35,272 bases of DNA, taken from NCBI RefSeq assembly GCF_014641495.1, contig NZ_BMHV01000028.1, forward strand, positions 1 to 35,272, written 5' to 3'. This DNA comes from Terasakiella brassicae. GTDB lineage: Bacteria; Pseudomonadota; Alphaproteobacteria; Rhodospirillales; Terasakiellaceae. Of the stretch, positions 6,325-35,272 are shown piece by piece. How positions within the stretch are numbered: position 1 is the first letter of the stretch; each line of letters opens with the position of its first letter. Below the pieces are notes generated by a model. That model was not told the DNA's origin, searched no databases, and was given only the letters and a program-made list of their open reading frames with translations. The translations under genes were made by a program, and so were the position numbers.

Positions 6325-7410
6325 ATGTTTGGGGAGAGACTTAAGATAGCTCGTAAAAAAGCGGGTATATCTTTACGTGCCCTTTCAGACGATCTGGGGG
6401 GTATCGTTTCCGCACAAGCCATTGGCAAGTACGAGCGCGGCGAAATGATGCCAAACTCAACTGTACTGATTGCACTATGTTCAGCATTAAAAGTGAGTTT
6501 AAGCTACATGGCGGCACCAACTGGTGCGCGATTGGGTAATGTTGATTTTCGTAAGCATTCCGGCACTCGCGCCCAAGAACGCGCCGAAGTGGAAGCATCT
6601 GTCTTGGAACATGTCGAGAAATATCTTCTGATCGAAGAAATTCTCGAAATGGATAGTGCTGCGTGGCATCAGCCATTTGATCGCCGAGAACTGACTTCCA
6701 TTGAAGAAGGTGAAGAAATTGCCCGTGAAGTCCGCGCTAAATGGAATTTAGGTATCGACCCCATCCCAAATCTGACCGAGCTTTTGGAAGAAAAAGGCGT
6801 GAAGGTCATGATGCTGGATTTGCCAGATCGTGTTTCCGGTTTGACTTGCGAAGTCATGCGAGAAGGTAAAACCGCTGTCCCTGTGATTGTCGTTAATGCA
6901 AACCATTCACTGGAACGTCGTCGCATTACTCTGGCGCACGAGCTTGGACATAGATTGTTCACTGCCGATTCAAAAATCGAAGAAAAAGCCGCTACTCGGT
7001 TTGCCAGTGCCTTCTTGATGCCATCGGAGCATTTGACTGCGGAAACTGGAAAACATCGCCGTGCTATTGGTGTGGAAGAAATTTACACCCTGAAACGCAT
7101 CTACCGTGTCAGTGCTGCGGCATTGATTGTCAGATTGCGTGACCTTGAGGTTATTTCTAATGAACGTATGACTCGCACCTTCCAAACTGTTGGGCGGTCT
7201 TGGCGGCGTGTAGAACCACGCCCCTTTGAGGAAGGTTCGCAACAAGGTTGCTTCGAAAAACCCAAACGCTTTCCGCGACTGGTGTACCGGGGGCTGGCAG
7301 AAGACCTGATCTCCATCTCAAAAGCGGCCGAGCTTCTTAATGAACCAGTCAAACTGGTTGAGCAAGCAATGACTGAGGGGTTGCCGGATGGTGCAAATCG
7401 TTGTGAGTGA
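6325..7410 (+). CDS. XRE-type HTH / ImmA-IrrE metallopeptidase, antitoxin-like
   Basis: Residues 3-60 form a helix-turn-helix of the XRE type (RLKIARKKAGISLRALSDDL ... KYERGE). The central domain carries the zinc-peptidase motif HELGH (205-209), followed by EEKAATRFASAFLMP, typical of the ImmA/IrrE (COG2856) family. The C-terminal part (300-361) looks like another helical, possibly DNA-reading segment. Such proteins act as repressors that cleave, or are paired with, a partner. Here the gene overlaps the PIN toxin gene by 23 nt, so an antitoxin or regulator role is likely. The promoter upstream carries palindromic operators. Confidence 0.85.
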   Translation: MFGERLKIARKKAGISLRALSDDLGGIVSAQAIGKYERGEMMPNSTVLIALCSALKVSLSYMAAPTGARLGNVDFRKHSGTRAQERAEVEASVLEHVEKYLLIEEILEMDSAAWHQPFDRRELTSIEEGEEIAREVRAKWNLGIDPIPNLTELLEEKGVKVMMLDLPDRVSGLTCEVMREGKTAVPVIVVNANHSLERRRITLAHELGHRLFTADSKIEEKAATRFASAFLMPSEHLTAETGKHRRAIGVEEIYTLKRIYRVSAAALIVRLRDLEVISNERMTRTFQTVGRSWRRVEPRPFEEGSQQGCFEKPKRFPRLVYRGLAEDLISISKAAELLNEPVKLVEQAMTEGLPDGANRCE

Positions 7411-7894
7411 TAGCTCCGTCCTAATGGATTTGGCTCGAACGGGCTTAATCGAATACACGGGCGGACTCCCTTTCGATTTTATCATCCCAAACACAATGTT
7501 TGCCGAAGAATTGCTGGATTTAGGCGAATACAGCCGAGATCAGTTGCTAAAGATGGGTTTTGCGTTATCTGAACTAAGTGGCAATGGCTTTAGGATTGCA
7601 CAAAGTCACATGTCAGAACACAAGAAACTAAGCATTCAAGATTGTTTTGCCCTTGCTTTAGCGCAGGAAAAAGACGCTATCTTGATGACCGGGGATGGCT
7701 TACTTCGCAAGGTATCTCAGAAAAACGGTGTTGAAACCCACGGGGTTCTTTGGTTCTCAGATTTGATTGAGAAACACCAACTCGTCGCCAATGAATTCTT
7801 GCGTGACTGCCTTCTGACCTTGCAGCAGCACCCGGCCACACGGTTGCCAAAAAAAGAATTACAGGACAGGATTGATCGCTTGGGGGTAGAATAA
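7388..7894 (+). CDS. PIN-domain toxin (predicted RNase)
   Basis: This 168-residue protein has acidic residues of a PIN nuclease: D8 in VSDSSVLMDLA, E40/E41 in FAEELLD, D85 in SIQDCFALALA and D103 in LMTGDG. PIN toxins cleave RNA with a bound metal ion. The start overlaps the upstream HTH/peptidase gene by 23 nt, a known pairing of COG2856-type proteins with PIN toxins. The C-terminal extension (residues 125-168) is helical. A third gene follows after only 19 nt. Confidence 0.8.
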   Translation: MVQIVVSDSSVLMDLARTGLIEYTGGLPFDFIIPNTMFAEELLDLGEYSRDQLLKMGFALSELSGNGFRIAQSHMSEHKKLSIQDCFALALAQEKDAILMTGDGLLRKVSQKNGVETHGVLWFSDLIEKHQLVANEFLRDCLLTLQQHPATRLPKKELQDRIDRLGVE

Positions 7895-7913: not shown

Positions 7914-8918
7914 ATGGTAGATTTTGAAGTCCCCGATTTTTTTGATCCTGCAAATGCGACGAACGTGAACTTCTCTCCGTCTCTGCCGACAATTTTTCAA
8001 TATGCTAATGAACATTTGAAAACAAACGACATTCAACAATCTTATGCTGACAAAAGCAGAATTGAATTGTTGCTTATTGATTGCCAGAAAGACTTATGCT
8101 TCTCGCCGTATTTTGATTCACCTGAACAGCCGCGAGGTGATAACGCTGTCCGTATTGCAAAGTTTATTTACAAAAATCTGCCCTGCATTTCTTACATCAC
8201 CTCATTGATGCGGAGTCATTTTCCTTATCAAATTTTCTCCCCGTTATGGTGGGTCAACGCGAATGGTGAACACGTTGGAGATATGACGACTATTTCTTCT
8301 GCTGACCTACGATCTGGCAAATATCGCCCGGCACCCGAAGTTTCTCAATTTGCCAGTGGACGGTATAGTTGGGCATCTCGTCAGGTCGAACACTATATCA
8401 CTTCCCTTGAAGGGAAAGGCTATCAACTTTGTGTAAAACCTTTCCATTGCCTGATGGGAAGTGACGGATGGAATATGGTGGGGATCATCCAAGAAGCCTT
8501 TTGGTTCCATTGCGTCACGAGAAGTACCCAACCTAATCTACAAATATATGAGAACAACCCGTGGATAGAGTGTCATTCAGCATTCGGGTCAGACTGCTTA
8601 ACACGATGGGATGGCAAAGGTTGTCTTGACCAAAAAGATACCGCCCTCATGCTTAGACTTTTGCAGAACGATTGCCTGTTCATTGCTGGATACTCAGCTT
8701 TTCACCCGATAACAGCAACAATTGACGATCTGTTGCGTCAAATCATGATTACAGACCCAGCACTGGCAAAAAAGGTCTATCTCCTGACCGATTGCATGGT
8801 ACCCGTGGCGACATCTGACACCAATATTCAAGAAGTATATGAGCGATATTCAGATGCAGGGATTAACCTTGTCAGCTCTACCGAAACCATCAATTTAAAT
8901 GAGTACCGCTTTAAATAA
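7914..8918 (+). CDS. Isochorismatase/nicotinamidase-fold protein lacking catalytic Lys and Cys
   Basis: The fold is indicated by LLLIDCQKDLCF (D56), the VKPFHCLMGSDGW segment (H178), FIAGYSAFHPITATI and KVYLLTDCMVPV. In the larger cysteine-hydrolase relatives I know, the Lys lies about nine residues before the YS(I/A) segment and the Cys follows SH. The corresponding positions here are Y212 and P265, so two of the three catalytic residues appear lost while D56 stays. A nicotinamidase reaction is therefore unlikely; binding of a nicotinamide-like ligand or a structural role is possible. An N-terminal extension of about 50 residues precedes the domain. The gene is 19 nt downstream of the PIN toxin on the same strand, and its last 24 nt overlap the convergent restriction gene. 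Confidence 0.7.
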   Translation: MVDFEVPDFFDPANATNVNFSPSLPTIFQYANEHLKTNDIQQSYADKSRIELLLIDCQKDLCFSPYFDSPEQPRGDNAVRIAKFIYKNLPCISYITSLMRSHFPYQIFSPLWWVNANGEHVGDMTTISSADLRSGKYRPAPEVSQFASGRYSWASRQVEHYITSLEGKGYQLCVKPFHCLMGSDGWNMVGIIQEAFWFHCVTRSTQPNLQIYENNPWIECHSAFGSDCLTRWDGKGCLDQKDTALMLRLLQNDCLFIAGYSAFHPITATIDDLLRQIMITDPALAKKVYLLTDCMVPVATSDTNIQEVYERYSDAGINLVSSTETINLNEYRFK

Positions 8919-11900
8919 TTTATCAATGTAGGTGTCTTTATCTTCATTTTGGAAAAGTACATGCCTTTCAGCAAAATCATCGGATGTGGCAAGTTCAGGC
9001 TTCCACCAACGCACATTTGCGAGAGGCGTATTCGACACTATGAAAGAGTTCATCGTCACCTTGTTCGACAATTTGGACCCTGCTGTCCGCATCTTGGTTT
9101 CAATGTCCTTAACCGTTTCATAAAATCGCAGTTTGGGATCATCAATACCTTCACAGTGCATAATCCCTTTGGGGTCAACGAATACTATGTGCTGAATATC
9201 GGCTTCAATAATCCACAAAATAAAATCAGGATAGAAGTTGCCAGCCTCAAAAAAGCCAATTCCGCGTCCTTTTGACTGATTTCGTAAAAGATAAATTTCT
9301 CTGTGGTCTAACAATGGCGGCTTATTTCGGTAAAACTCGCGCAAATCCATAACAAAATCCCGCTCACCTTCATTTAGATGCACTGGTGAAATTTTGAAAA
9401 GGTCTGCATCAACACCCTTCTTCAAGTGGAGAAGGGGGGAATAAAGGTGTTGGTCGAAGACGAATGCTTCCCCTTTACCACCAATATTAAAATCAACCAA
9501 TGTGCCATCAGCTATATGCTGTTGTAATTCTTCAATTCGTTGAATAATGAGTTTTTCAGATTGATCAACTAAGACTTTATATTCAGCAAAAAAGTTGGGG
9601 TCGGCGGGATCGAGTTCCTTATATTCCCGAAATGGAGCTTCAAAAGACTCCTTCTGGAATTTGTAAAAACGATCACAGAACTTCTTTAAAAGAGAAATTG
9701 CTATTTCTTCCCATTCTGATACACGACTAAAATCACCAACAGATAAACGTTCTTCCGGGATATAAAGCGTATACCAGTGGGGGTCACGCAAAAGCGCAAG
9801 AACGGCGTCTTTGCTCATATTGAAGTTATGCCAGTTCCGCTCCGCTTTCAGGCGTTGTATTTCAAAATAGATATTTTCAATATCCATGAAAGCAATATGG
9901 CGTTCCCGAAGCTTATCTTCGTGAGGCAAGGTATCAAAACTTGTTTGTTTCACACCACGGCTTGCCATTGATTTGACACGGGGGTACCAATCAAGCGTGA
10001 CTCGGCGTTTCGGCAAAAATTCAGATGGCGGTAATGCCAGTGTGGTTTTTGCCTGTTTTTTGAAGTTGATTCCTTCGGGTACACTCACGGTGATCAAAGA
10101 AGTTTTAGGCAATTTGAACCGTATTGGGAGATTAAATTCAATTCGATCTTCTGGTTTCTTAATACCTTCACCTTCGAGAAATTCATTAAAACGGGCCATA
10201 TAATCGGATTTCACACCGAAAACATTTAATGTTTCCAATATTGGTAGTTCATCGTCTTTCGGAACCCATGAAAACTCCCCATCTTTGGCAGACCAATGAA
10301 TTGCTTTGCTTCGTTTAAGTGAATTTTCAAAGCCGCGTAAGCGAACTCCTCGTCCGAACAATTGTATAATCTCAGAACCTTCTTTTTGACCAACAAACAT
10401 TAGCCCCATCGTAGCGACACGGAAACTGTTCCAACCTTCTGTAAAGCGTTTTGACCCTATTAAAAGATTGAGCTTCGAATTCTTCTCGTTGATCCCTTTG
10501 AAAAGCGAGTGACTGAACTCAATTTCCTTTCCATCCAGATTATTTTCTTGGCAAAGGTCAAAAAGTTTCTTGGCATCACCAACATTGATTACGCCGAAAT
10601 GATCATCACTGTCGCCAACCCTCAAAGCCAATTCGCCATCACCGCCTTTAAGATAATCAATATGCAGCACCCCACCTGTATAGGAATTGAACAGACGAGA
10701 CATAATGTCGTTATAAAGTGTTGCTACGTTATCCTTAGATTGAAGCAGGTATTGAAACGCTTCTGCAAAAATGTCTGTATTCTTTTCATTTAACAGCCCC
10801 GTATCACCAGAGAGCAGCTTTTCAATATTGGCGAGTGTTCGCGCCTTGTTTGAAATAAACGTCGAAAGAAAGAGTAGAATATCCACCACGTCTGACACGT
10901 CGCGTTTATTTTCTTTTCGGATGGCAGTAACTTTACTGCCAACGAATACCCACAAAGGACGGTCTATATCGAAAGCTTTGTATGCTGCTTCTCGTTCATC
11001 ATAAAGTCGCAGTTGTTGATAGAAAGACAATAAACATGCTGATAGATACAAATGGCGATTTTCTTCATCGGCTTTAGTATCATCACGCCCTTCGATGTTG
11101 AGAATATTGTAATCTTTACCAAAACCATCAGCATGAAAATAACGGTAAGAATAATCAAATAGTATACATTTAGCATATTCGTCAGCCAGTCCCGTATTAC
11201 CACTGACAGCCTGACCTAACGTAGCCGAATATTCAAATGTGAATCCATCTTCTGCAAGGCGACGGCGCATTTCGAACCAGACATCGCCTTTCGCTCCCCG
11301 GTGACCTTCATCAATGAGAACGAGGTTGTTGGTTTCGAACTCTTCAACCGAAACTGTTTTCTTGCCACTTTCTTCACGCAGTTTATTCATATCAATCACA
11401 TCAATCTCTTGTGACGACAATAAACCTGATCCAGAGTTATTTTTATTAAACGGAACGGCCCGCATACCCGATTTTCGGAATTCCTCCAAATGCTGATGTG
11501 TCAACCCTTCGTTTGGCGTGAGCACGACAATACGATTCAGCTCATGTAGCTTTTTGTGCTTTTTCAAATAGTGCTGGAACTGTAAGACGTTGATATGCAT
11601 CAAAAGTGTCTTACCGCTCCCCGTGGCATTCCAGAAAGCAAGTTTTCGTAAACTGTCTTCGGTAAATAATGAAAGTCGGTCAGATTTCTTATTTTCACCC
11701 CATTCAAGGAGAACTTGGTTGAATTGGTTTACCAGACGGTTGAGATCATCCAACAACCCTTCTCGGTTGCTGAAAAATTGATCCAGAAAAATCTCCGCAA
11801 ACAGTAGTGACATATACTGGAAGTATTTCCACTCGATTTTTGGTGTGCGCTTTCTATTGATGTAATCTGTATGACGCGCAATGTTTGCATCAAACTCCAA

Positions 11901-12125
11901 AAGCATTTCTGGCGTTAGGAAACTATCAGCCTTCAATAACCCGACAAGCTCGTCATGATAGGCATAGCGCCCATCTTCTTTACGTCTTTCCAACGTTTCA
12001 TCAGTAAGACGATTTTTGGCAACTTGACGAAAGAGATCACCCTCCAAATCAGTGGCATCAACACCAAACTGGCTCAAGATATAGCGGTTTAAAATGAGCT
12101 TATGAGGAAATGGAACGACGGGCAT
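8895..12125 (-). CDS. Type III-like restriction subunit (Res): helicase-nuclease
   Basis: This 1,076-residue protein has a DEAD-like helicase core with Walker A NATGSGKT (166-173) and the DEGH box in LIDEGHRG (272-275). The C-terminal nuclease motif is YPDF (D967) followed by VDPKG (D984, K986), a PD-(D/E)xK arrangement typical of type III Res subunits. It would translocate or switch on DNA at unmethylated sites recognised with the Mod partner and cut. Its ATG overlaps the stop of the ATPase gene as TAATG (12123-12127), placing it last in the eight-gene operon. It is separated from its Mod by three unrelated genes, which is unusual. Its 3' end overlaps the convergent gene by 24 nt. Confidence 0.9.
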   Translation of the reverse strand: MPVVPFPHKLILNRYILSQFGVDATDLEGDLFRQVAKNRLTDETLERRKEDGRYAYHDELVGLLKADSFLTPEMLLEFDANIARHTDYINRKRTPKIEWKYFQYMSLLFAEIFLDQFFSNREGLLDDLNRLVNQFNQVLLEWGENKKSDRLSLFTEDSLRKLAFWNATGSGKTLLMHINVLQFQHYLKKHKKLHELNRIVVLTPNEGLTHQHLEEFRKSGMRAVPFNKNNSGSGLLSSQEIDVIDMNKLREESGKKTVSVEEFETNNLVLIDEGHRGAKGDVWFEMRRRLAEDGFTFEYSATLGQAVSGNTGLADEYAKCILFDYSYRYFHADGFGKDYNILNIEGRDDTKADEENRHLYLSACLLSFYQQLRLYDEREAAYKAFDIDRPLWVFVGSKVTAIRKENKRDVSDVVDILLFLSTFISNKARTLANIEKLLSGDTGLLNEKNTDIFAEAFQYLLQSKDNVATLYNDIMSRLFNSYTGGVLHIDYLKGGDGELALRVGDSDDHFGVINVGDAKKLFDLCQENNLDGKEIEFSHSLFKGINEKNSKLNLLIGSKRFTEGWNSFRVATMGLMFVGQKEGSEIIQLFGRGVRLRGFENSLKRSKAIHWSAKDGEFSWVPKDDELPILETLNVFGVKSDYMARFNEFLEGEGIKKPEDRIEFNLPIRFKLPKTSLITVSVPEGINFKKQAKTTLALPPSEFLPKRRVTLDWYPRVKSMASRGVKQTSFDTLPHEDKLRERHIAFMDIENIYFEIQRLKAERNWHNFNMSKDAVLALLRDPHWYTLYIPEERLSVGDFSRVSEWEEIAISLLKKFCDRFYKFQKESFEAPFREYKELDPADPNFFAEYKVLVDQSEKLIIQRIEELQQHIADGTLVDFNIGGKGEAFVFDQHLYSPLLHLKKGVDADLFKISPVHLNEGERDFVMDLREFYRNKPPLLDHREIYLLRNQSKGRGIGFFEAGNFYPDFILWIIEADIQHIVFVDPKGIMHCEGIDDPKLRFYETVKDIETKMRTAGSKLSNKVTMNSFIVSNTPLANVRWWKPELATSDDFAERHVLFQNEDKDTYIDKLFKAVLI

Positions 12126-13651
12126 TATACTGCTTCTCTTAATTGAAGGTTCAATTGTTGTGCTATTTCAGTCAATCTTTGACGTAAAGAAAGGGTGTAA
12201 AATCCCCATATAGCAGATGCCGAAGCGGCTTGAACTAAGTATTGCTCAACCCCTTCAAGACTAAGTCCAAAATGTTGGGCAATATTCCAAATGACTGACT
12301 TATCTGGGTCACTAAAAACATTACCATCAGCAAAATCAATATACTGTTGGACAAATCCAAAACCAGCACCATTAGTCAAAGCATCTCTTGTTGCATGTAA
12401 CAAAATTGCTTCTGGTCGGCACAAGCCAAATCCATACATTGCATTAATTACGGGCGCGTCAAACTGCTTTATTAAACCAAGAGTGCTGTCCCATAAAGCT
12501 TGCATATGACTGCCAGTGCCGTTTACTGAATTACGGATATGGCTACTTTTTAGTTCATCTGTTTCAAATTTATCGCCATCCAGTAGCACAATTGATGTGT
12601 CAATGCGGTGACCTTCAAGAGCAAGAGAACCTGCTACAGTGAATGCATTTTGTGCGGCACCATAGGTATTGAACTTAATATTTTGGTTTATACCAAGCTC
12701 TTGTGCGACTTGCTTGGCAATTTTCTGCGCCAAGGTATCTTCTGTCCAGAGATTGATCCGCCGAAGGTGCTGTTCATCTTCGGTAATTTGATAGAGCGAC
12801 GAAGGAGAGAAGCCCTCTAAGCAAAAAGATTGTCCCCCTTGATGCTGTAGTGTTCGGATGGCTAATAAGTCTTGAAATTCAGTAATCTGCGGCCAGTGTG
12901 TTGAGAAAATAATTTGTAAGTTTTTGTTCTGTGCAATTTCACACATCTTACCGATCAAGCGTCTAAGTGCCCGATCATGGAGAGAGACTTCAAGCTCCTC
13001 AATAATAATTAAGCCATTGTTTGGCGCACGGATGATCGCATCCAAAATTTGAAAAATCTTCTGTTCACCAGCCCCCATGTAGTGGGATAAATAAGACCTC
13101 CCATCTGTGCTTGCCATTAAAAAACGTCCAACAGCTCCCCAGTTTTTTTCACCTATTACAATATCAGTGTAACGGCGATTTAGTACGTAGCTGGCATCAT
13201 CTAAAAGCTGCTGCTTTTTATTTGGGCTTAGATCATATGGTCTTTCTGTAAAGGAAAAACGCGCAGTAACCGTTTCTCGCTCAACATGGGGTGCGCATTC
13301 GAGAATACCAATAAATCGATTATAGCGTTCTTTTCTGTTCTTTCTCAGAGGTATCCACTTAGAGTCTTTTTTGTATTTATTGGTCAGGCCATCCGCGAAA
13401 TGAACCGTAAGGGCAGAGCCTTCCCATAAATTCCCAGTGTGTGGAATAAAGAAATCAGTCCACCACCTTCCCACATATCCTTGCTGAGTATACTGATCTG
13501 GTTTGTATAGGCACGCAAGGGCGTGAAGCACGGTTGACTTGCCAGCACCGTTTTCTCCCATCAAAGCGACAACGCCGCTTTCAGGAAGGTTGATTTCCAC
13601 ATTTTGTAATCTTTTGAGATTAGCGATTTCCAGTTTTATGACTGCCGTCAT
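12125..13651 (-). CDS. OLD-like ATPase with TOPRIM-type domain
   Basis: An ABC/SMC-type ATPase: Walker A GENGAGKST (32-40), signature-like segment MGAGEQ (192-197), Walker B LIIIEELEVSL (214-224) and a downstream His in FSTHWPQ. The C-terminal half looks like a TOPRIM nuclease: E304 in LWTEDTLAQK and DGD (358-360) in IVLLDGDKFE. This matches the overcoming-lysogenization-defect (OLD/GajA-like) family, DNA nickases or nucleases used in phage defence. The ATG overlaps the preceding stop as ATGA (13648-13651), and its stop overlaps the Res start. It is probably an effector or sensor within the operon; partner specificity is inference. Confidence 0.8.
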   Translation of the reverse strand: MTAVIKLEIANLKRLQNVEINLPESGVVALMGENGAGKSTVLHALACLYKPDQYTQQGYVGRWWTDFFIPHTGNLWEGSALTVHFADGLTNKYKKDSKWIPLRKNRKERYNRFIGILECAPHVERETVTARFSFTERPYDLSPNKKQQLLDDASYVLNRRYTDIVIGEKNWGAVGRFLMASTDGRSYLSHYMGAGEQKIFQILDAIIRAPNNGLIIIEELEVSLHDRALRRLIGKMCEIAQNKNLQIIFSTHWPQITEFQDLLAIRTLQHQGGQSFCLEGFSPSSLYQITEDEQHLRRINLWTEDTLAQKIAKQVAQELGINQNIKFNTYGAAQNAFTVAGSLALEGHRIDTSIVLLDGDKFETDELKSSHIRNSVNGTGSHMQALWDSTLGLIKQFDAPVINAMYGFGLCRPEAILLHATRDALTNGAGFGFVQQYIDFADGNVFSDPDKSVIWNIAQHFGLSLEGVEQYLVQAASASAIWGFYTLSLRQRLTEIAQQLNLQLREAV

Positions 13652-14670
13652 TTCCGCCCCCGTTTAGCTGTGAATTTTACGGCGACACGTTCCTCCGGGT
13701 CTAACTTCAACCCGTTTATATTATCAAACCAACCCTTGCGCTTTTTATCATAGCGGAATTCATGTAATTTCATGCCCGGGCGACTGACGCTGGTGACAAT
13801 GCAAATTACATATTCCCCCTGATTGAATTGGCTTTTTTGATGCTCTGTGATGGCATCATATTCGTTAAATGTGAAATCAGCCGTTACGGTATCAATTCCA
13901 TGTCCTTTTACTTCAATGCAAAGGATTTCCTGACCATCTTGAGAGATCGCCTGTAAATCATACCCAACATTTCGATCTTCAAATGACTCAACGGTGTAAT
14001 GGCGTTTCTCAAATTCATCGGTAACGAGCTTGATCGCGCCTTCTTCGACTTCTTTTTTCCGCTCCTGATTAATGACAGGCTTTTTCCGTTTCTTACTGAC
14101 TGATACTCCTGTTTTTCCTTGAGCCAGTTTCCACAACTTCCGCTCCATCTTTGAGAACTTTTTCTTTTCGGAAATATAGAAAGGTCTGGCCTGTTTCCAT
14201 GTATCCCCAAGTCCTTTCAACAGTTCTTTGTCACGAAGCTCTGTTTCCAAGAAAAACACGTCACCTGCGTTTGCACTAACGCGATACCAAGCGTCACCTT
14301 TAAAGGGACGATTAATTTCATCTGGGCAGTATTGCTCGTCTCGATAAACCCTTGCGTTTCTGTACCAACCGACCACAACCATACCGCCTGATGGGTGTTT
14401 CGCTGTCCAGATAACGGTTACGCCGTCCACATATTGGTGACCTTTGTCATCTTGGTCTACCTCACCAAGACGTTCTATATGAATGCTATCCCCTTTGCTG
14501 ATACGAGCAAATCCATAGTGGCAGCCATCATTTTCCACTTGAAAATTAAAGGCTTCGTGCGGGTCTGAGCCATCAAACAAATGTTCAAATGTCGGTTTAT
14601 CGATATTTTCAAAACCTTTGTAGTCTTCCATCCATTGCAGGCGGAAGAGCACCATCTTTTGACTGCTCAT
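13648..14670 (-). CDS. DUF3883-domain protein (PD-(D/E)xK-like) with N-terminal reader-like domain
   Basis: The C-terminal 125 residues fit DUF3883: VGYDLQA, then ILCIEVKGHG, then a NEYDAITEHQ helix, i.e. D and ExK of a restriction-endonuclease-like core (D241, E256, K258 counted from the upstream ATG at 14679). The N-terminal half (VVVGWYRNARVYRDEQ) resembles small beta modules that often precede DUF3883, possibly sensing modified DNA. The middle is Lys-rich (KKRKK). The start at 14670 (MSSQKMVLF) is preferred because it overlaps the upstream stop as ATGA; 14679 is an alternative. The downstream ATPase gene overlaps by 4 nt, so the two are coupled. Confidence 0.75.
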   Translation of the reverse strand: MSSQKMVLFRLQWMEDYKGFENIDKPTFEHLFDGSDPHEAFNFQVENDGCHYGFARISKGDSIHIERLGEVDQDDKGHQYVDGVTVIWTAKHPSGGMVVVGWYRNARVYRDEQYCPDEINRPFKGDAWYRVSANAGDVFFLETELRDKELLKGLGDTWKQARPFYISEKKKFSKMERKLWKLAQGKTGVSVSKKRKKPVINQERKKEVEEGAIKLVTDEFEKRHYTVESFEDRNVGYDLQAISQDGQEILCIEVKGHGIDTVTADFTFNEYDAITEHQKSQFNQGEYVICIVTSVSRPGMKLHEFRYDKKRKGWFDNINGLKLDPEERVAVKFTAKRGRK

Positions 14671-15236
14671 AACATCCATCCGAAAAATGCCGCCTTAACA
14701 GGCAATAACTGTAATGCCCAGTATCCCAAGCCTAACGGGATAACGCTTTCTAATAAAAAATATCGGATGCGCCAGACAGTTAGTAACCATCTTGTTGAGG
14801 TTTCTTCATAAGTGCGCCCAAAGGTATGACCGAAATATTGGAGATGGGCCGTTGCAGCTTCTACGAAAAAATGAGCCAGCAAATAGGCGACTAAAAATGT
14901 TAATCCAGTATCAATGGCAACAGGGGTCAGTCCCTCAATTTTTAGACCTAAAAAGGCTGTGCTGGGACTACTTGCTGCCGTGATTTTGAGGTCAAATGAT
15001 TTGTAAAAAACAGCGACACCAGCAACAATTAATAAGTTGCGGCGAATGCGGTCAGCACGATCTGAAAAGGATGGTGGAGGAGCAATCAATTCATCCATTT
15101 CTTTTCGTATTCGATGCTTACGATGAACTTCAATTTCTGTTTTTAAGGCAATTAAAGTTTCAACAAAGTGCTGTTTAAATGGTTTGTCCTCATCAGTGGG
15201 ATTTTGCCATTTCTCAACCTTCTTCCAATCCGACAT
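14667..15236 (-). CDS. Small membrane protein in the restriction operon (189 aa)
   Basis: The start at 15236 ([10 protein letters not shown]) is 7 nt from GGAGG (15244-15248); the ATG three bases earlier is an alternative. The N-terminal 80 residues are soluble and charged ([12 protein letters not shown]). They are followed by about three hydrophobic segments: [31 protein letters not shown], and a C-terminal [17 protein letters not shown] do not recognise the family. The start overlaps the Mod stop as TGATG, and its own stop overlaps the DUF3883 start as ATGA, so it is clearly an operon member. It may anchor the complex at the membrane or act as a membrane-damaging effector; both are inference. 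Confidence 0.75.
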
Positions 15237-18200
15237 CATACATCCTCCACATCGAACATGAGGGTGTGGAAGGTTTCTTCGGTTAGGCGGACTTTCCATG
15301 TTTCGTCGGCGCGACGCAGGTTTTCGAGGTTATTGTCGCCATTGACGAAGATGAGGTCGAATTCCATGTCATGGGTGTTGTATTGCTGCTTCTGGAACCA
15401 TTCATCCAGAGCGTCATTGTCACACTCGTTTGTGTTGCGCCAGATAATCAGGGTGTTATCGCCATCTGGCATGGTGCCCGTGACTTCATAGATGCCTTTG
15501 GAACGACGCATGGTCTTCACGCGCAAGCCCAGCAGGTAGTTGAAGGTCTCAAGCATATCAACACGCACATTGCGGGTCTCATCATCGCGTGTGACCTTCA
15601 TGGTCACGTTGAACGGGTCTACAAAGCGATCCAGATCAAGCAAGGAACCCCGACTTTCCACATCCAGCATATAATGCAGCATGTAATCTTCACGGAAACC
15701 CGCATGCTGTTGAAGGAGTGCATTCTGTTGCTCTGTACGAGACAGGTTCAGGTTATTGGTTGCGTCTTCATAAGACTCAAGGCGGATGTATTTGGAGAAA
15801 ATAGAGTTTCCATCTGAACGGTCTGCTTGACCATCCTTCCAATTAGACGAATAGGTGACTTTCTTGACACGCGGCATGACAATTTCGTCAAAATAAGTGC
15901 CTACTTCAACTAAACAAAAATTCCGACTGCTATTGTCTCGTTTGTTAGCATCTACAACAGCCTGATAGGTGGTACCAGAACCCGCAAAAAAATCCATTAC
16001 GGTATGGTTTGACCAAGTTGTATGCTCGACGAGTCTTTGGATGAGAGTTGTTGGTTTAGGGTTGGAGAATGCCCGATTTTTTCCGAATAAATGGTAAAGC
16101 TGTTTTTCCCCATCCGTGAAATCGGTTACTACAGATTTCCCAACATTTGTCTCAACCTCATGCACAAAACGTTTTACTTGAGGGATTTTGTTTTCATCTT
16201 CCCCCCATGCAATACGGTGATCAGCAGCAAGATCATCAAAACAATTTGATTGCTTCCCAAAAGGTTGCTTAGGCCAACTCCACCCCCTTTTAGGGGCAGG
16301 ACAAGGTTGGCCTGTTATTGGATGTGTTGGCTTATAAAACCTAAATTCTGGATTTAAAGGGTCTTTAAAAGCTGCTTTTTGTGAATCTTCCTTCACTTGT
16401 GGCATTGAGGGGTTATCTTCACGCCAAACCCATATTTTAGCATCCTGTGCTTTTGCATCTGCATGATCTACTAATACATTATTTCGATTTCTATATTCGG
16501 CTCGCCTGTAGTTGTATAGTCCCTTCCAATCCTCAGCATTTAAGTCTTCATCCTCAAGTTCTCCAGCCATAGCCGCTTTAACCTTGGCTTTGTTCTTCTT
16601 ATATAACTCAGAGATTCTTACTTCCACATCGGCCAATGGCAAATACTGAGGAGTAATTTCCTCAAGAAGTTCCTGCAATTCATCCAAGCCCGGTTTCGGC
16701 TCTCGAAATCTACGAAAATCCGTTTTAGCTTCATGCAAGTTTTTAGCAAAGACTTCTACATATTCATGATTAGTTGAATAGGTAGGAGATTGGTTTTTAT
16801 TTGAGTTTTGAACCCAAATAATTTCTTCAACCTTATTTTCGACACCATAAGTGTTTTCCAAAGCACGTTCTAACTGGGCGCGTTCGTTGGCATCAATACT
16901 GGCAAAGAAAACACCTTTTTCACCCAAAAGACCTTTCGATAATTTAAGGCGATCAGAGATCATGGATAACCATGAGGAATGCTGATAAGCGTCCTTATAA
17001 AAGAAACCATCCCCTCCGGTGTTATAGGGAGGGTCAATGTAGATACAGTCTACTTTTTCTTGGTAGCTTTCCTGTAACAAATTCAAAGCATGAAAATTAT
17101 CACCATTCACCAATAGCCCGTTTGTGCTTTCATCCAGATCATCAACCTCCGCCAGCAAACGGTCTTTGAAGTCTTGATTATAAAACGCTGTATCGAGAAC
17201 CAGTGAAGGGTTGGCTTTGAGGAACTCGATGGTCAACGGATTGCTATAGGCAGGTGTCGTTTCAAATGACATGCTGCCTTGGTCGCTATCTTCGTCAGAA
17301 GTCGTCCCGATTTCATCAATGGCGAAGAGTTTTATCCACTCTTCTCGTTGGGCATCGTTGGCGGCAATTTCTGCGTAAAACTTTTCGTCAATCCTGTCCA
17401 GCGTGATGAGCCAATTGGTTTCCAGCACGAATTTCTTTTTAAGCCAAAGCTTCTTCTGGAAATCTTCCAGTTGCGCCAAAAATTCAATGACCTTAAGGGC
17501 AATCTTTTTCAGGGTAGCTGCCTTGCTCAACATCTGTTGAGAGACCATGATCTGTGCATTTAGTTTATCAGGGTCATTGGGCAGCAGGTCGTCCAGCAGC
17601 ATAACTTCATTCTGAATGAAAAAATCGAGTTCCCGTTTGAGGAACTTGCCCAAATCTTTATGAATGAAATAATCAAACGAGTTCTTGGCGGTATAATCCG
17701 TCAAATGCTTTTCCAGCACCGTGCGGTCTTTATTCTTTTCTGTTGCGGCATTGGCGGAAAGAGCTTCCAACCAGACATCCCAATCTTCAATATCAGCGAC
17801 CAGCGGTGATCCTTCGGCCAATCCCAAGAGGGCTTCTACGGCCAAGCTATTCAAATCTTTTTGGCTGCGCTTTTTTTCATCTGCCCGATATTCAAAACGA
17901 ATGATTAATTCACCGTTTTCAACGGCAATCGGGTCTGCACCATGCAGGATGAAACGGCGTTCCTTATCGGCGGCCTCCTTGTTATTGTTTTGCTCGGTGG
18001 TGGCAGAAACCAGTTCAAAACGGACACGTTTGCCAATAATCGTACCAGTCGCCCCGGGGACAGCAGGAATAGTCACGGGAACCTTAAAGGCATAGGTTTG
18101 GAAATTTTCCGCGCTCTTGATGTAATATTGATCCGCGTTAGCCCAGTGAAGTTTGACCTCTTCCCCCTCGTAAGGAAGGGCATACACACCTTCCTTGTAA

Positions 18201-18613
18201 CGACGAAGCGACATAAAATCGCCATCACTGTAATAACGGGCAAAGAAGGTATAGAGATCGGAATAGACCTGTTCTTCCAGTTTCTCAATATCAACACCAT
18301 TTTCAAGCTCGGCACGGAGTTCCTGAATACGGGGAACCGCGTTCGGGTCCATGTTCAATGCTTGGGCATTCTTGATGGCACTATCGAGTTCTTCACGCTT
18401 GGAAACCATGCTTGCAGGTTGGAACTCAGCAAGAGCTTTTTTAACCGTCGGCAGCAGGTCTTGGTCCAAGAAGGTTTCAACCTCATCACGTTTGGCATTC
18501 ATAATACGGTATATGCCAAAGTCCAAATCCGCCTGATCCATCTGGAACATTTCACGGAGTTTATCTTTCAGTTGTCGAAGACGAGGTGTCTCTTCCTGCT
18601 TGTGCGTCGCCAT
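15236..18613 (-). CDS. Type III-like DNA adenine methyltransferase (Mod), 1,125 aa
   Basis: The catalytic motif is IDPPYN (526-531), and the AdoMet-binding motif DFFAGSGTT (874-882) follows it, the beta-class order of type III Mod subunits. An N-terminal extension of about 500 residues (mostly helical, with [21 protein letters not shown]) and a large insert between the motifs (about 600-860, likely target recognition) make it nearly twice the usual Mod length. Such long Mods are the kind I associate with SNF2-helicase-linked modification systems. It would methylate N6-adenine at an asymmetric site to protect self DNA. The stop overlaps the next gene as TGATG; the preceding gene ends 15 nt upstream. 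Confidence 0.9.
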
Positions 18614-18628
18614 AGTGTTTTTCTTTCT

Positions 18629-19765
18629 TTAATCTGAGCGTTCGGTTGCAGCCTGATCCATGGCCAAAATGAAATTACCCAATAACAGGAAAATAAGCCA
18701 TGATGGATCGAATGTGTCGCCAATAAAAAATGCTTTTCGGGAAAAATATTCAACAAACAAAAACAAGGTAACTGCTTTTAATGTTGTGATTAACAGGTTT
18801 TGCAATGGTCCATTGTCACCTTCTACTCTGTAACGAACCCAAATTCGCATAACAGTTGATGAGATAAACGATACGGTCATAGTCAGGAAAATTACGGGCA
18901 ACCCAATCGTCAGCCCTTTTCGGATGATACTGTCTGTAGAAAAAAGTAGCCCTGAAATACGGACAAAAAAATCAGATTTTTGATTGAGAATATCAGAACC
19001 CGGAACAAAACCACTCGTCCACGAACCGAAGAAGACCGTCAAAACATCATGGAGAAATATTAGAGTTACAGGTGCCAACACCCAACAAATGACGGCAAGC
19101 CCAATCATCCCACCAATAACTTGGCAAAAATTTTCTTTATATTGTTTGTTTTGATAATAGAGCTTTACGGCTGGTCTTGGTAAACTACCGACATTGCTCT
19201 TTTTGACGTAAGCCGTCACCACGCTAATGGCGATACAGGCAGGTGAAGCCAAGGCCATCATTGGAAGGGACCAGCTAACTGTTTCCCCAAAAAACATAAG
19301 CCCTTCTGAACCTGTTAGTGCCGCGTAAATACCAAATATCGAAAGAATTCCGAGATAAACAGTCGTCGTCCAACGAATTGGTTTTCCCGCTAAGATAACT
19401 TCGACTTGGTAAAGTCGTTTGCTTTGTATTTTTCGAATTTTGTAGTCTCCGAGAAAAATGATTCCGACAAAGCGACCAATCATTTTCCCGGTAAAAAACA
19501 CCCCCATTCCCAAGAAAATAAACACAAAGCACCACAAGCCCAATATTACTGCCATAACAAATATAATGGACATATCATTCCAATTACTGGAAAGGCCACC
19601 GCCATTGCAGCAAGTTTCGCTCATTAACAATGTCAAGCTAAGCAAAATTAGAACGGGTACTACAACCCATATGGTGCCCATTGTAATTCTGGGAACTTTC
19701 TTGAAATCTTCAAAAAGCAAAAGATAGGCTTGATAAAACTTCTGTATCGAAGATAAGTTATTCAT
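18629..19765 (-). CDS. Polytopic membrane protein in the restriction operon (378 aa)
   Basis: The start at 19765 (MNNLSSIQKFYQ) is taken because the longer reading frame lies inside the helicase gene; this start is 4 nt after the helicase stop. About eight hydrophobic segments span the protein, e.g. VVPVLILLSLTLLM, IIFVMAVILGLWCFVFIF, TVYLGILSIFGIYAAL, IGLAVICWVLAPVTLIFL and WLIFLLLGNFIL. A CCNGGG loop follows the first segment. No transporter signature is recognised. It lies between the SNF2-type helicase and Mod genes. Membrane proteins in anti-phage operons often act as effectors, but that role here is inference. Confidence 0.75.
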   Translation of the reverse strand: MNNLSSIQKFYQAYLLLFEDFKKVPRITMGTIWVVVPVLILLSLTLLMSETCCNGGGLSSNWNDMSIIFVMAVILGLWCFVFIFLGMGVFFTGKMIGRFVGIIFLGDYKIRKIQSKRLYQVEVILAGKPIRWTTTVYLGILSIFGIYAALTGSEGLMFFGETVSWSLPMMALASPACIAISVVTAYVKKSNVGSLPRPAVKLYYQNKQYKENFCQVIGGMIGLAVICWVLAPVTLIFLHDVLTVFFGSWTSGFVPGSDILNQKSDFFVRISGLLFSTDSIIRKGLTIGLPVIFLTMTVSFISSTVMRIWVRYRVEGDNGPLQNLLITTLKAVTLFLFVEYFSRKAFFIGDTFDPSWLIFLLLGNFILAMDQAATERSD

Positions 19766-19769
19766 TGAC

Positions 19770-22661
19770 CTAACGTACCTCCCAACGAATGTTAAACAGC
19801 ATCTCAACCTGACTTTCGCTTTCCATACGTTTGCGCAGGTTGTCGATCAATTGATCTCGTTTTTCTTCCGCTTCATCCTGAACATCAAAGATTTCACGAC
19901 GGAGTTTCTTCTTTTTACGCTCCAAGTCTCTGATTTGTTCTTGGAGTTTCAATTGGGCATCAAGGTTTGTTGTTTTATTGGTTTCACGCTGTAAATCACG
20001 GATGCGATCCTTGGTGTCTTTCAGTTTTTTCTCTGCTGCAATTTCAACATCGCGCACCCATTTATCCAGCTTTTCACGTTCGTCATTAAAGTGCTTGTGA
20101 TTGCGCTCTTCGGTTTCTTGTAGAGCCGCCTGAATATGTCTCTGAGAAACCGTTTTCAGGCGATCTCTTTCATCTAAAGACAAAGGCGTGATGTCCGTTG
20201 ATAGCGAGGCCGTGCAATCAAAAATCTTTTCACAGATTTCTTGATCCAGTTCTTTTCCTTGATCTGTGAAGGCAGTGAAAAGTAAGAACTCATCATCTTC
20301 AAACGATCTGACATTTAAACGCTGTAACATCAAAATGCCCGACTGGCCTTGTAAAGCTTCAACAACGCTGATCTTGGTCGGATGATCGGTGATGTTGAAC
20401 GCAACCGTTCTTTCGCTCAAGTCGTACTGTGCTGCTGTATCGATAACGTATTCGCCGAGCCTGTGGGATGGTCGATAAAGATATTGCCCGTGAAGGTTGC
20501 CTTTTTCTTCCTTGTTGATGAGGTGATAGACACCCGTCTCAAGCCTCAAGCCCTGTGGCGGTTTATCAAGGAAGAAGGTCAGGTGATCATCATCGAAGCC
20601 TGCGCGTTCACTGAGCACATGCTTGCTGGTTTCCCAGAAATATCGTCCAAAGCGATCAATATTGCGTTTGGTTTCATCGAGATGGCTTTTCAATCGGCTA
20701 TGCACATCTTCGTCAAAATGTTCCAGCAGTTTTGAACGGGTTTCCGACATTTTGGCATTGATGATCTCGTCCATTTCGGCTTGGAGGACGTTGAAGGCTT
20801 TTTCGATTTCTTTGGGGTCACGACAATCTTGATAGATTTGCAAAATGCGTTTTTCAAAATCAATCCCGTTTTCAAGTGAACCAAGCACTTCATCAGAAGC
20901 ACCAAAAACACCGGAAAACAGATTGAACTTTTCAGTTAAAAGCTGATGTACTCGTTGGTCAGCTTCATTACGTTTGTTAAGGAAGTTAATGACGACGACA
21001 TCATGTTTTTGCCCATATCGGTGACACCTCCCAATACGCTGCTCAACTCTCTGAGGGTTCCAAGGCAGGTCGTAGTTGATCAGAAGAGGACAGAATTGAA
21101 GGTTAATGCCTTCTGCCCCGGCCTCTGTTGCGATCATGATTTCAGCTTCGTCACGGAAATGTTCCACGATGGCGGATTTTACATCCACCGGGCGTGATCC
21201 AGTGATACGCCCTGTACTGACATTCTTGTTTAGCCAGTTCTTGTATATTGATTTGGCAATATCATCGCCGTTCGTGCCATTGAAAAGAACGATCTTGCCC
21301 TTGAACCCATTTTCTTCAAGAAACGACAATAAGAAATCTTGTGTCCGTCGAGATTCAGTGAAAATCAGGGCTTTGCGCGGGGCATTGGTTTCTTTGAGAC
21401 TTGAGAAACCTTTATCCAATGCTGTCAGCAATGAACGTGCTTTGGTATCGGTCTTTAGGGATTTTGCTAATTCAATGAACCCTGTGAGTTCGTCAATCTC
21501 TCTTTGCAGGCTCTTGGAGTAAGCGGATGGGTCTTGCTCTTTGTTGTTTTCAGGTGTTTCAATTTCCTCAAATTCAAGATCGAACTCTTCATCAAGGTAT
21601 TCATCTACAATATCAAGATCACCCAAAATTTGGTTATCTTCATTTTCTGTAGATTGATTTTCCTTGAGAGCCTCAAGGCGTTGTACCATCGCTTCCAAGG
21701 TGCCGATGATGGCATTCGTTGAAGATGCCAAGAGCTTACGCAAAATAAGCGTAATGAGGTGTTTTTGCCGCTGTGGGATCGCATGAGTTTGCTTGCGGCT
21801 TAAAAACGCCGATACAGCATCGTAAAGAGCTTGTTCATCATCAGTGGGGGTGAACGGCACGGTAAGGGCTCTACGCTCGGTATATCGGATATATTCAAGA
21901 ACCTGAGAACGAAGAGTTCGATGGCAGAAAGGTGTCATCCGTTCTCGCAAATCCTCAAGGTCGCTTTTTACTGCCGTATATTGTGATCGGAACGAGCGAA
22001 TATGACCGAAAATACGATCATCAATCAAACTGGCGAGACCATATATCTCATCCAATTTGTTTTGTAAGGGGGTTGCCGTCAGGAGAACCTTTTTGGTGTC
22101 TTCCAACGCCCATTTAATTGCTTTGCCTATCTTGTTTTTGGGCAGGTAAACGTTTCTGAGTTTGTGAGCTTCATCAATAACCGCTAAGTCCCAGCTAACT
22201 TGGCGTATTTCTGCCTGCTGACGGTTGGCATATTGATAGGAGGTAATGACAATGGATTGCTTTTGATCAAAGGGATTTATCACGCCCTTTTTCTTAAAAT
22301 CCCGTGCTGTCTTTGCATCCAAAACAACAGAGGGTAGATTGAACTTCTCGTCCAATTCATTTTGCCATTGTTTGCGAAGAGATGCAGGACAGACGATAAG
22401 CAATTTTCGTTTACGCTCTGCCCATAACTGACAAAGCAGAAGACCTGACTCGATGGTTTTACCCAAACCAACTTCATCTGCGAGAATAACGCCTTTGCTT
22501 AGTGGAGAGCGAAGCGCAAAGAGAGCAGCATCAATCTGGTGTGGATTTAGATCAACACATGCGTCAAACAAGGAACGAGATAAACGCTCTACACCATTGT
22601 GACCGTGTTTTTGCGACAACACGTTAGCATAATATTTTGCATGAAACGGTGTGATTCGCAT
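19770..22661 (-). CDS. SNF2-type DEAH helicase/translocase (963 aa)
   Basis: Motifs of an SNF2/RapA-like ATPase are in order: NPHQ (39-42), ADEVGLGKTIE (61-71), VIDEAHKL (161-168), LTATPLQ (194-200), ATEAGAEGINLQ (511-522) and QRIGRCHRYGQ (541-551). An acidic insert (338-378) separates the two RecA lobes. A long coiled coil follows at about 840-950, rich in Glu, Lys and Arg. Such helicases translocate on double-stranded DNA and occur in defence systems with methylases. It is the first enzyme of the operon, 97 nt downstream of the XRE regulator gene, and its start (MRITPFHAKYY) is well defined. Confidence 0.9.
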   Translation of the reverse strand: MRITPFHAKYYANVLSQKHGHNGVERLSRSLFDACVDLNPHQIDAALFALRSPLSKGVILADEVGLGKTIESGLLLCQLWAERKRKLLIVCPASLRKQWQNELDEKFNLPSVVLDAKTARDFKKKGVINPFDQKQSIVITSYQYANRQQAEIRQVSWDLAVIDEAHKLRNVYLPKNKIGKAIKWALEDTKKVLLTATPLQNKLDEIYGLASLIDDRIFGHIRSFRSQYTAVKSDLEDLRERMTPFCHRTLRSQVLEYIRYTERRALTVPFTPTDDEQALYDAVSAFLSRKQTHAIPQRQKHLITLILRKLLASSTNAIIGTLEAMVQRLEALKENQSTENEDNQILGDLDIVDEYLDEEFDLEFEEIETPENNKEQDPSAYSKSLQREIDELTGFIELAKSLKTDTKARSLLTALDKGFSSLKETNAPRKALIFTESRRTQDFLLSFLEENGFKGKIVLFNGTNGDDIAKSIYKNWLNKNVSTGRITGSRPVDVKSAIVEHFRDEAEIMIATEAGAEGINLQFCPLLINYDLPWNPQRVEQRIGRCHRYGQKHDVVVINFLNKRNEADQRVHQLLTEKFNLFSGVFGASDEVLGSLENGIDFEKRILQIYQDCRDPKEIEKAFNVLQAEMDEIINAKMSETRSKLLEHFDEDVHSRLKSHLDETKRNIDRFGRYFWETSKHVLSERAGFDDDHLTFFLDKPPQGLRLETGVYHLINKEEKGNLHGQYLYRPSHRLGEYVIDTAAQYDLSERTVAFNITDHPTKISVVEALQGQSGILMLQRLNVRSFEDDEFLLFTAFTDQGKELDQEICEKIFDCTASLSTDITPLSLDERDRLKTVSQRHIQAALQETEERNHKHFNDEREKLDKWVRDVEIAAEKKLKDTKDRIRDLQRETNKTTNLDAQLKLQEQIRDLERKKKKLRREIFDVQDEAEEKRDQLIDNLRKRMESESQVEMLFNIRWEVR

Positions 22662-22758
22662 TGATGCCCCCCAAACCCCAAATCCACAATTGAGTTAGCA
22701 CAATACTGACGACAAGGCCAGTCATTACATGCAATGATGGTGCGCGTGCAGTTCTTTG

Positions 22759-23103
22759 CTACCGTTGACGCTTTTCCAAGGCATCAACCAGTTCTGCGAG
22801 AACTTGAAGGTCTGCTTCGGGAAATGTTTTTAGGGCATATTGAATTTTTTGTGCAGCTTTTGTGAGTTCAATCTCGGCAACGCTGACATCGCAATCATCA
22901 AAAAATGCGGATACCGAACATTCAAGCTTTTGGGCAATTTGTTCAATTGTGGTGAGAGAGGGGGACACTCTCCCATTTTCGACCTTCGAGATGGTTTCGA
23001 CGGTTTTTAATGTAGCCCGGGCAAGCCTTGCCTGTGTGAAGCCTTTTTGCTTCCTCAATGCCTTTATGCGGCTGCCAACTTGTTTTGATAATGAATCCGA
23101 CAT
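22759..23103 (-). CDS. XRE-family transcriptional regulator
   Basis: This 114-residue protein has a helix-turn-helix at residues 9-66 (VGSRIKALRKQKGFTQ ... VETISKVENGRVSPSL). The C-terminal helix (LQVLAELVDALEKRQR) may dimerise. It is transcribed first in the - strand defence operon. It probably controls both itself and the SNF2-type helicase gene, as C-proteins do in restriction systems. Likely binding sites are the 26-bp-spaced boxes upstream of its start. No catalytic residue is present. Confidence 0.85.
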   Translation of the reverse strand: MSDSLSKQVGSRIKALRKQKGFTQARLARATLKTVETISKVENGRVSPSLTTIEQIAQKLECSVSAFFDDCDVSVAEIELTKAAQKIQYALKTFPEADLQVLAELVDALEKRQR

Positions 23104-33445: not shown

Positions 33446-33721
33446 ATGATGAGTCGCAAACGCACCCCAGAATTTAGAGAAGAAGCAGTCCGCGTCGCTT
33501 TAAGCAGTAACCAGCCCCGCAAAGTTGTTGCCGCCGATTTCGGCGTCAGCCTTAACAGCCTTAATCGTTGGATCGCCCAGCACCGAGAGAAAGAAACCAC
33601 AGAACCGTCTGACGATGTTCATAAAGAATTGGCCCGTCTTCGCCGTGAGGTCCGTGAACTGCGGGAGGAGAGGGATATTCTAAAAAAGGCGGCACGCTAC
33701 TTTGCGAGCCAAAAATCGTGA
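33446..33721 (+). CDS. IS3-family transposase OrfA
   Basis: This 91-residue HTH protein (MMSRKRTPEFREEAVRVAL...VVAADFGVSLNSLNRWI) ends in a leucine-zipper-like coiled coil (LARLRREVRELREERDILKKAARYFA), the usual OrfA layout. An A6G heptamer at 33682-33688 (A-AAA-AAG in frame) is the typical -1 ribosomal frameshift site, which would produce the OrfAB fusion transposase. OrfB overlaps by 4 nt. Confidence 0.95.
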   Translation: MMSRKRTPEFREEAVRVALSSNQPRKVVAADFGVSLNSLNRWIAQHREKETTEPSDDVHKELARLRREVRELREERDILKKAARYFASQKS

Positions 33722-34613: not shown

Positions 34614-35174
34614 TATGAACGTTCCGTATAATCCATCGCGGTTACGGCATTACGCATCAGCATGCTCATCAACAGTTCACGTTCTTTTTCTGAAAAAGCT
34701 GAATTGGCGATAAGAAGAAGGTTCTGGACTTCCTGATCATCTGCTTCATCCTTACAAAGCAGGGCGCGATGAAGTTGATGCCGCTGATGAAGATCAAGCA
34801 AACCATAAATCACAAGAAAGTGTTGCAGACATTTGTGCTGGTTAGCTTCCGCTTGAAATTTTGAAGCTTGAATAAACGCTTGATAATCATCAGCATCAAA
34901 TTCAATTCGCACATGGAAGTAAGCTTGAAGCCATAATGCAAAGTGAGAAACCTTTGCTCCAAAAGAGGTTGTAAAGCCAGTAACAATTTTCGTTTCATTC
35001 ACATCCGTTGTAGACAACCACGCTGTGCATGTCTTTTTGATATAATGACGGTGATCATTGTCGGTACCAATTTCGTAACCATCATCTTCTGCGCAGGAAT
35101 TTAGTACATCAAGAGGAATGACCCCATTTGCGAACTTGTATTCAATAGGCATAATCCATTAATCCTCATACTCT

Positions 35175-35196
35175 ACGACCCTCCCATCGAGGGCGT
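35175..35196 (-). promoter_or_regulatory. Hairpin in the leader of the right terminal gene
   Basis: Mirror copy of the 8-bp, one-bulge hairpin at 77-98, between the predicted transcription start and the ribosome binding site of the gene starting at 35152. Confidence 0.5.
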
Positions 35197-35207
35197 TTAT
35201 GACTATG

Positions 35208-35236
35208 AATTTAAGCCTGAAACCGAATAGTGCCAA
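35208..35236 (-). promoter_or_regulatory. Putative sigma-70 promoter in right terminal repeat
   Basis: Mirror copy of the left promoter: TTGGCA (35236-35231) and TAAATT (35213-35208) on the - strand with a 17-bp spacer. It would drive the right-end operon: the interrupted gene, then the genes starting at 33291 and 32992. Confidence 0.5.
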
Positions 35237-35272
35237 TTTTATTATTCAAGTAAAACCAATGACTTAACTATA

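Follow-up and report, generated by a model that had tools for sequence, protein, structure and literature searches.

Previous work described a subgroup of type III restriction-modification (RM) systems that includes Eco86II of E. coli NCTC86, which recognizes GAGCC, and BspHIV, which recognizes CGCCC; in both cases the modification is N4-methylcytosine (m4C) (PMC8259958). In these systems mod is preceded on its 5' side by an additional gene for a helicase-like ATPase, an arrangement found in more than 500 genomes; the gene is dispensable for methylation, and its role was given as unknown (PMC8259958). In the Eco86II preparation that cuts DNA, at a position ~25 base pairs (bp) from the site, only Mod and Res were found, the extra ATPase being undetected, and inserted genes are not mentioned in that paper (PMC8259958). 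Here we describe an operon of this kind from Terasakiella brassicae, on contig NZ_BMHV01000028.1, whose whole length of 35,272 nucleotides (nt) was analysed and is called the window. Judged from its sequence, the core of the operon, namely an SNF2-type ATPase, Mod and Res, is a known three-gene type III RM system of the Eco86II/BspHIV subgroup. Other genes are inserted at two points, slot A between SNF2 and Mod and slot B between Mod and Res, and the reading we favour, with a probability of about 0.78, is that the type III operon is a platform carrying exchangeable accessory genes (cargo) in these two slots.

The original prediction, made from the DNA alone, placed eight open reading frames (ORFs) on the - strand, with three short gaps followed by overlaps; the coordinates and the junctions both agree with the sequence. 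From the 5' end of the - strand the ORFs, with lengths in amino acids (aa), are:

22759-23103, - strand: XRE/HTH_3 regulator, 114 aa (Pfam HTH_3).
19770-22661, - strand: SNF2-type ATPase, core, 963 aa (SNF2-rel_dom and Helicase_C).
18629-19765, - strand: TM1, multi-pass membrane protein, slot A, 378 aa, a near-orphan (6 hydropathy peaks).
15236-18613, - strand: Mod, beta-class amino-methyltransferase of type III, core, 1125 aa (N6_N4_Mtase).
14667-15239, - strand: TM2, small membrane protein, slot B, about 190 aa, a near-orphan (2 hydropathy peaks).
13648-14679, likely start 14670, - strand: DUF3883 protein, slot B, 340-343 aa (NOV_C).
12125-13651, - strand: OLD-type ABC ATPase with a TOPRIM-like C-terminal region, slot B, 508 aa (AAA_15/AAA_21).
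8895-12125, - strand: Res, superfamily 2 (SF2) helicase with a PD-(D/E)XK nuclease motif, core, 1076 aa (ResIII).

The mechanical ORF of TM1 extends to 19807, and the ATG at 19765, which leaves a 4-nt gap to SNF2, was taken as the start; that of TM2 extends to 15299, and its start was corrected to about 15239. The XRE and SNF2 genes are 97 nt apart and TM1 and Mod 15 nt apart, and from Mod through Res the genes overlap. The spacing indicates that the genes from SNF2 to Res are probably transcribed together. Catalytic motifs are intact in the window's SNF2, Mod, Res, OLD and DUF3883 proteins. TM1 and TM2 were called membrane proteins from a simple hydropathy scan, and neither matched a family in PADLOC, Pfam or NCBIfam scans; the PADLOC run proposed with the original prediction did recover the type III Mod and Res and a DrmD-like SNF2.

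The SNF2 protein, with GLGKT and DEAH motifs, is an SF2 ATPase encoded 5' of mod and homologous to the corresponding NCTC86 gene; its Pfam domains are helicase domains only, with no nuclease domain among them. Mod matched the PADLOC model MTase_III PDLC03646 with 704 bits and has DPPY (motif IV) at 527 ahead of FAGSG (motif I) at 876, which is the order of type III beta-class enzymes. Res matched REase_III PDLC03654 with 680 bits and has the SF2 helicase motifs GSGKT and DEGH together with a C-terminal PD...DPK, as expected of a type III Res. In E. coli NCTC86 we located a locus with the order SNF2, Mod, Res and nothing intervening, to whose genes the window SNF2, Mod and Res show 54, 41 and 42% identity over aligned residues. 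According to PMC8259958, one putative type III system is present in five of its six strains, Acinetobacter being the exception, and from this statement and the gene order we infer that the locus is Eco86II itself. At the sensitivity used, 162 of 5426 E. coli genomes have a match spanning 80% or more of a relative of this res gene. Among plasmid relatives of Mod, an E. coli plasmid carries SNF2-Mod-Res without any inserted gene, a Blastomonas plasmid has one small gene between SNF2 and Mod, an Aeromonas plasmid has AAA + DUF4276 genes between Mod and Res, and a Hymenobacter plasmid has several genes between SNF2 and Mod. The Mod-Res family is wider than SNF2-Mod-Res, because Priestia and Haloplanus carry other first genes: the Priestia gene, which carries the annotation ATP-dependent DNA helicase, has just 19% aligned identity to SNF2, and the one in Haloplanus encodes an AAA ATPase. 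Two side observations concern core genes. The Mod gene at G748:C37:5471-8449 is interrupted by an internal stop, showing that broken cores occur. In the plasmid res gene of locus L019, a 298-nt piece (locus 14068-14365) recurs with at least 99% identity in many other E. coli plasmid records, where it is usually annotated as a DUF1158 protein.

A Mod-alignment scan of species genomes confirmed 577 relatives, and the 80 best of these entered the analysis. Adding loci from plasmids and E. coli, the first 22 of 78 viral-contig loci (L104-L125) and the window brought the set to 111 loci. Mod was called in 107, SNF2 upstream of it in 75, Res downstream in 95 and both in 69; the four loci dropped because no Mod was called include L017, which is annotated with inserted genes between SNF2 and Mod. 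An insert was defined as a gap of at least 200 bp between core genes; the ORF caller was mechanical, and some short cargo ORFs may be spurious. Thirty-three of the 69 complete loci were insert-free and 36 had an insert, in slot A only (9), in slot B only (15) or in both slots (12). A co-directional ORF was present in the insert in 32 of the 36; L026, L085, L086 and L095 have a gap without a co-directional ORF of at least 60 aa, and in L026 the SNF2 gene looks fragmented. By source, 22 of 53 complete loci from species genomes and 1 of 3 from plasmids were insert-free. Junctions in slot B are tight: in 23 of 28 loci the first inserted gene begins no further than 20 nt from the Mod stop, and in 21 of 28 the end of the last one lies at most 20 nt from the Res start. 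When cargo is lacking, 63 of 64 Mod-Res gaps are of 24 nt or less. In 398 genomes of the phylum drawn separately, 19 of which had any match at the set limit, there were five Mod matches of at least 600 bits besides the window. Two of the five have slot-B cargo, RhuM (G557) and AAA + DUF4276 (G482), and G794 and G748 are cargo-free; in G581 Mod and Res are adjacent and the upstream side lies off the contig.

The cargo differs widely among loci. We listed 74 cargo ORFs of the relatives and scanned 26 of them with Pfam, naming the rest of each cluster by similarity. Slot A holds Fic relatives in five loci (one similarity cluster, with Pfam run on two), GmrSD in L045 (twice) and L062, a YhcG/DUF1016 nuclease in L087, an HTH-M78 protein next to a 120-aa ORF in L079, and a family of 169-191 aa without a Pfam match in L016 and L024. 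Slot B is occupied most often by an OLD/AAA cluster, with 19 members in 16 loci including the window, and by DUF4276 relatives in 9 loci. RhuM is found there in L045, L067, L075 and L200, YhcG in L035 and L063, and DUF3883 in the window and L024; single loci have GmrSD_N (L100), Schlafen AlbA_2 (L046), DUF3800 (L054), a PHP protein (L087) and PLD, at its cut-off (L083). In PADLOC the AAA + DUF4276 genes of L203 are HEC-01A/B, and the RhuM of L200 is PDC-S05. Outside the window, then, the cargo is mostly defence-like (Fic, GmrSD, YhcG, RhuM, AAA + DUF4276).

The closest comparison comes from the window's own genus, in which, among six genomes, a full-length core Mod is present only in the window's genome and in G004; over the stretch compared G004 is identical to L024, and this metagenome-assembled genome was deposited as Methylocystaceae HF-Din02. 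The window and L024 operons have a common site and common flanks. Identity between the two is 91.2, 92.7 and 91.9% for the core proteins and 90% for two proteins of the far flanks. In L024, slot A has a 191-aa protein, without a match among plasmids, in place of TM1, and slot B has a DUF3883 protein only, which shares 32% identity with that of the window; TM2 and OLD are both absent. Two further congeners, G002 and G005, keep these flanks, including the XRE homologue and the gene at 23270, but have other genes between them; L214:9680-17201 and L216 cover this site in the two. The G002 replacement genes score as SspB, SspC, SspD and SspE in PADLOC; those of G005 have the same gene order and similar sizes, so that their Ssp-type assignment is by order and sizes only. 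The operon's chromosomal site looks like a defence hotspot. Because the XRE homologue stays where other genes replace the operon, XRE is a doubtful member of it; it is tied to the site at least as much as to the operon, and is a possible regulator.

Turnover was followed on a FastTree tree of 68 Mods, with cargo states compared with shuffled labels. Presence or absence of cargo required 22 changes, and well-supported branches force 16 of these; with shuffled labels the mean was 23.3, and 175 of 500 shuffles were as low as 22.

Several observations weigh against the platform reading or against free exchange of cargo. Loci with both slots filled are clustered on the tree, with 8 changes versus 11.2 for shuffled labels (2 of 500 as low), and the four slot states together required 27 changes versus 31.5 (1 of 200 as low). 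The window, L024, L032 and L053 form a supported group (99), and in all four both slots are filled. Cargo is therefore partly inherited, while slot content changes. The OLD stop and the Res start overlap by 1 nt in 4 of 4 loci (window, L027, L032 and L053), so OLD may have a lasting tie to this type of Res instead of being free cargo. Similarity to the query decided which 80 loci from species genomes were included, and cargo is less frequent in other sources: inserts are missing from 8 of 10 complete loci on viral contigs and from 2 of 2 in E. coli. Finally, 6 of the 26 scanned cargo proteins have no Pfam family above cut-off; these are the proteins of L016, L024 slot A, L031, L049 and L090 and a 470-aa protein of L100.

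The window's own cargo falls into two near-orphan membrane proteins and two proteins of recognizable families. TM1 matched none of 384 other genomes of the class, TM2 gave one weak match among them, and neither matched among plasmids. The DUF3883 protein consists of an N-terminal module and a C-terminal NOV_C domain, PD-(D/E)XK-like, with an intact GYDL...EVK motif. The N-terminal module is common to eight proteins, with 17 invariant residues including W88 and G101-W102-Y103; its partner end is NOV_C-type in six, HNH in one (L217) and an unknown domain in one. The D and ExK residues are kept in 6 of 6 NOV_C-type homologues. A solved-structure search with DUF3883 gave nothing usable, and its structure model, with a predicted local distance difference test (pLDDT) score of 41, was not used for a fold search. 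The DUF3883 protein is likely a self-contained sensor-nuclease, perhaps of the type IV (modification-dependent) kind. No match to it was found in phage records, and searches of viral contigs with DUF3883, OLD and TM1 found no relatives, these being single-protein searches that reach close relatives only.

The OLD protein has the two features of OLD family nucleases, an ABC-type ATPase (Walker A and GAGEQ motifs) and TOPRIM-like acidic residues (E-D-D), all intact; Walker A, YMG.GEQK, E304, D358 and D360 are kept in 4 of 4 proteins (window, L027, L032 and L053). Its nearest solved sequence is the OLD nuclease 6p74. A Foldseek search with the OLD model found retron ATPases, OLD, Rad50, PtuA and GajA; the model is of medium confidence (pLDDT 62.7), with query TM-scores of 0.25-0.37 among the matches listed, and gives weak fold support. 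OLD matched 897 plasmid records, 399 of them with at least 80% coverage and all of these below 60% identity. A genome search with OLD was uninformative, giving, besides the window, just short matches around the ATPase motif.

The platform reading builds on features established directly from the sequences: core membership, two slots, tight junctions, and differing cargo on a near-identical core at one site. In the mechanism we propose, Mod would methylate one strand of an asymmetric site, with m4C as the subgroup precedent, and Mod and Res would find unmodified invading DNA and cut it about 25 bp away. The cargo would be made from the same message as the core and, most likely, would add independent or second-line immunity, with DUF3883 acting as a sensor-nuclease, OLD as an ATP-gated nuclease, and TM1 and TM2 as possible growth-arrest effectors at the membrane. 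A bolder extension, which we regard as rather unlikely, is that Eco86II-type operons are general sockets for backup effectors, with two fixed points, a shared toxin/nuclease pool, and the SNF2 ATPase (or Res) as a switch: when restriction fails, it would free the effector, much as inhibition of EcoPrrI triggers PrrC (PMC12707154). If that were true, TM1 and TM2 would be new membrane effectors of the shared pool.

The possibility was considered that the cargo genes are hitch-hikers, that is, selfish or addictive genes such as toxins and orphan nucleases which sit at a defence hotspot and exploit the operon promoter, with no immune benefit and no contact with the core. Cargo presence is near-random on the core tree, as noted above, several cargo types (Fic, HTH-M78) resemble toxin-antitoxin genes, the site swaps whole gene sets, and in 4 of 4 plasmid loci inspected the DUF3883 relatives had no SNF2-Mod-Res within 6-9 kb. 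However, the cargo pool is also rich in nuclease and OLD/AAA defence families, most loci have exact junctions at either end of the cargo, and DUF3883 and OLD of the window retain their catalytic motifs, so that we consider this explanation improbable. The original prediction of one new integrated system, with the membrane proteins, DUF3883 and OLD as obligate partners of SNF2-Mod-Res, is very hard to sustain: although the genes lie on one strand with SNF2-to-Res gaps of at most 15 nt or overlaps, the near relative L024 also has DUF3883 in slot B, and OLD adjoins Res in three other loci, the full set recurs in 0 of 68 other complete loci and 33 of 69 are insert-free, other cargo occurs elsewhere, L024 lacks TM1, TM2 and OLD beside a 91-93% identical core, XRE remains at the site with another gene set, and the core is already published, Eco86II cutting in a fraction with only Mod and Res found (PMC8259958). 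The outcome that the prediction itself had named as telling against it, SNF2-Mod-Res mostly without the other genes, was thus largely what was seen. Its statement that three genes separate Mod and Res is accurate, and the two are apart because cargo occupies slot B; the core order itself is not new.

In sum, the platform reading describes a known core with apparently undescribed cargo-slot behaviour, and suggests that Eco86II-type operons act as sockets for swapping immune modules. Repeated defence-like genes at two precise points offer a handle on the role of the SF2 ATPase, and the slots are a guilt-by-association source of new effectors, such as TM1, TM2 and the family of 169-191 aa proteins in L016 and L024. 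With cores almost identical but cargo that differs, the window and L024 make a natural pair. Automatic annotation may report a locus of this kind as a DISARM piece plus separate type III genes.

The window has several other features outside the operon. A 776-aa protein (797-3127, + strand) with only weak helicase matches belongs to a family with several copies per genome in the genus, and its counterparts at this site in three congeners share about 90% identity with it. At 6325-7894 (+ strand) an HTH-M78 (ImmA-like) gene precedes a gene with a weak PIN-domain match that falls short of the Pfam cut-off; the pair is a possible toxin-antitoxin, and is absent from the syntenic stretch of L024. An 806-aa protein (26400-28820, - strand) has MethyltransfD12, Dam and N6_N4_Mtase matches in one chain. 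A transposase with an rve integrase core (33718-34575, + strand) lies close to the contig end, and the contig ends themselves (1-123 and 35150-35272) are inverted 123-bp copies, 99% identical and found nowhere else in the assembly; similar stretches occur at L024, L214 and L215.

With respect to known systems, DISARM consists of DrmA, DrmB and DrmC with DrmD or DrmMI, and BREX has PglZ and BrxC. The window SNF2 resembles DISARM in matching DrmD models, with 712 bits against the DrmD-like PADLOC model and 714 bits against NCBIfam DrmD_b, the latter under the cut-off of 950; no DrmB or DrmC was found in the eight proteins, and the sole DrmA match was SNF2, at helicase level. For BREX, no PglZ or BrxC was found for the eight proteins among the PADLOC matches listed. 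ARMADA and Hma were also considered as the identity of the operon and set aside. The original prediction of an RM-based composite operon that is neither BREX, DISARM nor a plain two-gene type III system was borne out. The window OLD shares its ABC ATPase with OLD, GajA, PtuA and AriA, and its TOPRIM region with the OLD and GajA kind, but it has no GajB, PtuB or AriB partner in the operon and is encoded directly before res. The Eco86II/BspHIV systems have the same SF2 helicase-like ATPase 5' of mod, followed by mod and res (PMC8259958); in NCTC86 nothing lies between the core genes, whereas in the window slot A is filled by TM1 and slot B by TM2, DUF3883 and OLD. The literature searched, in which subscription journals were thinly covered, yielded no account of cargo inserted in operons of this type III subgroup, which is not proof of absence. 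Embedded genes are known from other systems. BrxU is a modification-dependent GmrSD enzyme inside a BREX island (PMC12707154), and GmrSD genes are cargo in three of our relatives (L045, L062 and L100); the host system of BrxU is another one, and the window has a DUF3883 protein instead. PrrC is encoded in the type IC RM locus EcoprrI and is triggered by inhibition of EcoPrrI (PMC12707154). EcoprrI is type I whereas the window's operon is type III, and the PADLOC, Pfam and NCBIfam scans gave no anticodon-nuclease family in the window cargo. What the two share is the arrangement: PrrC is a second-line effector whose gene lies inside an RM locus, and the window's cargo likewise lies inside an RM operon.

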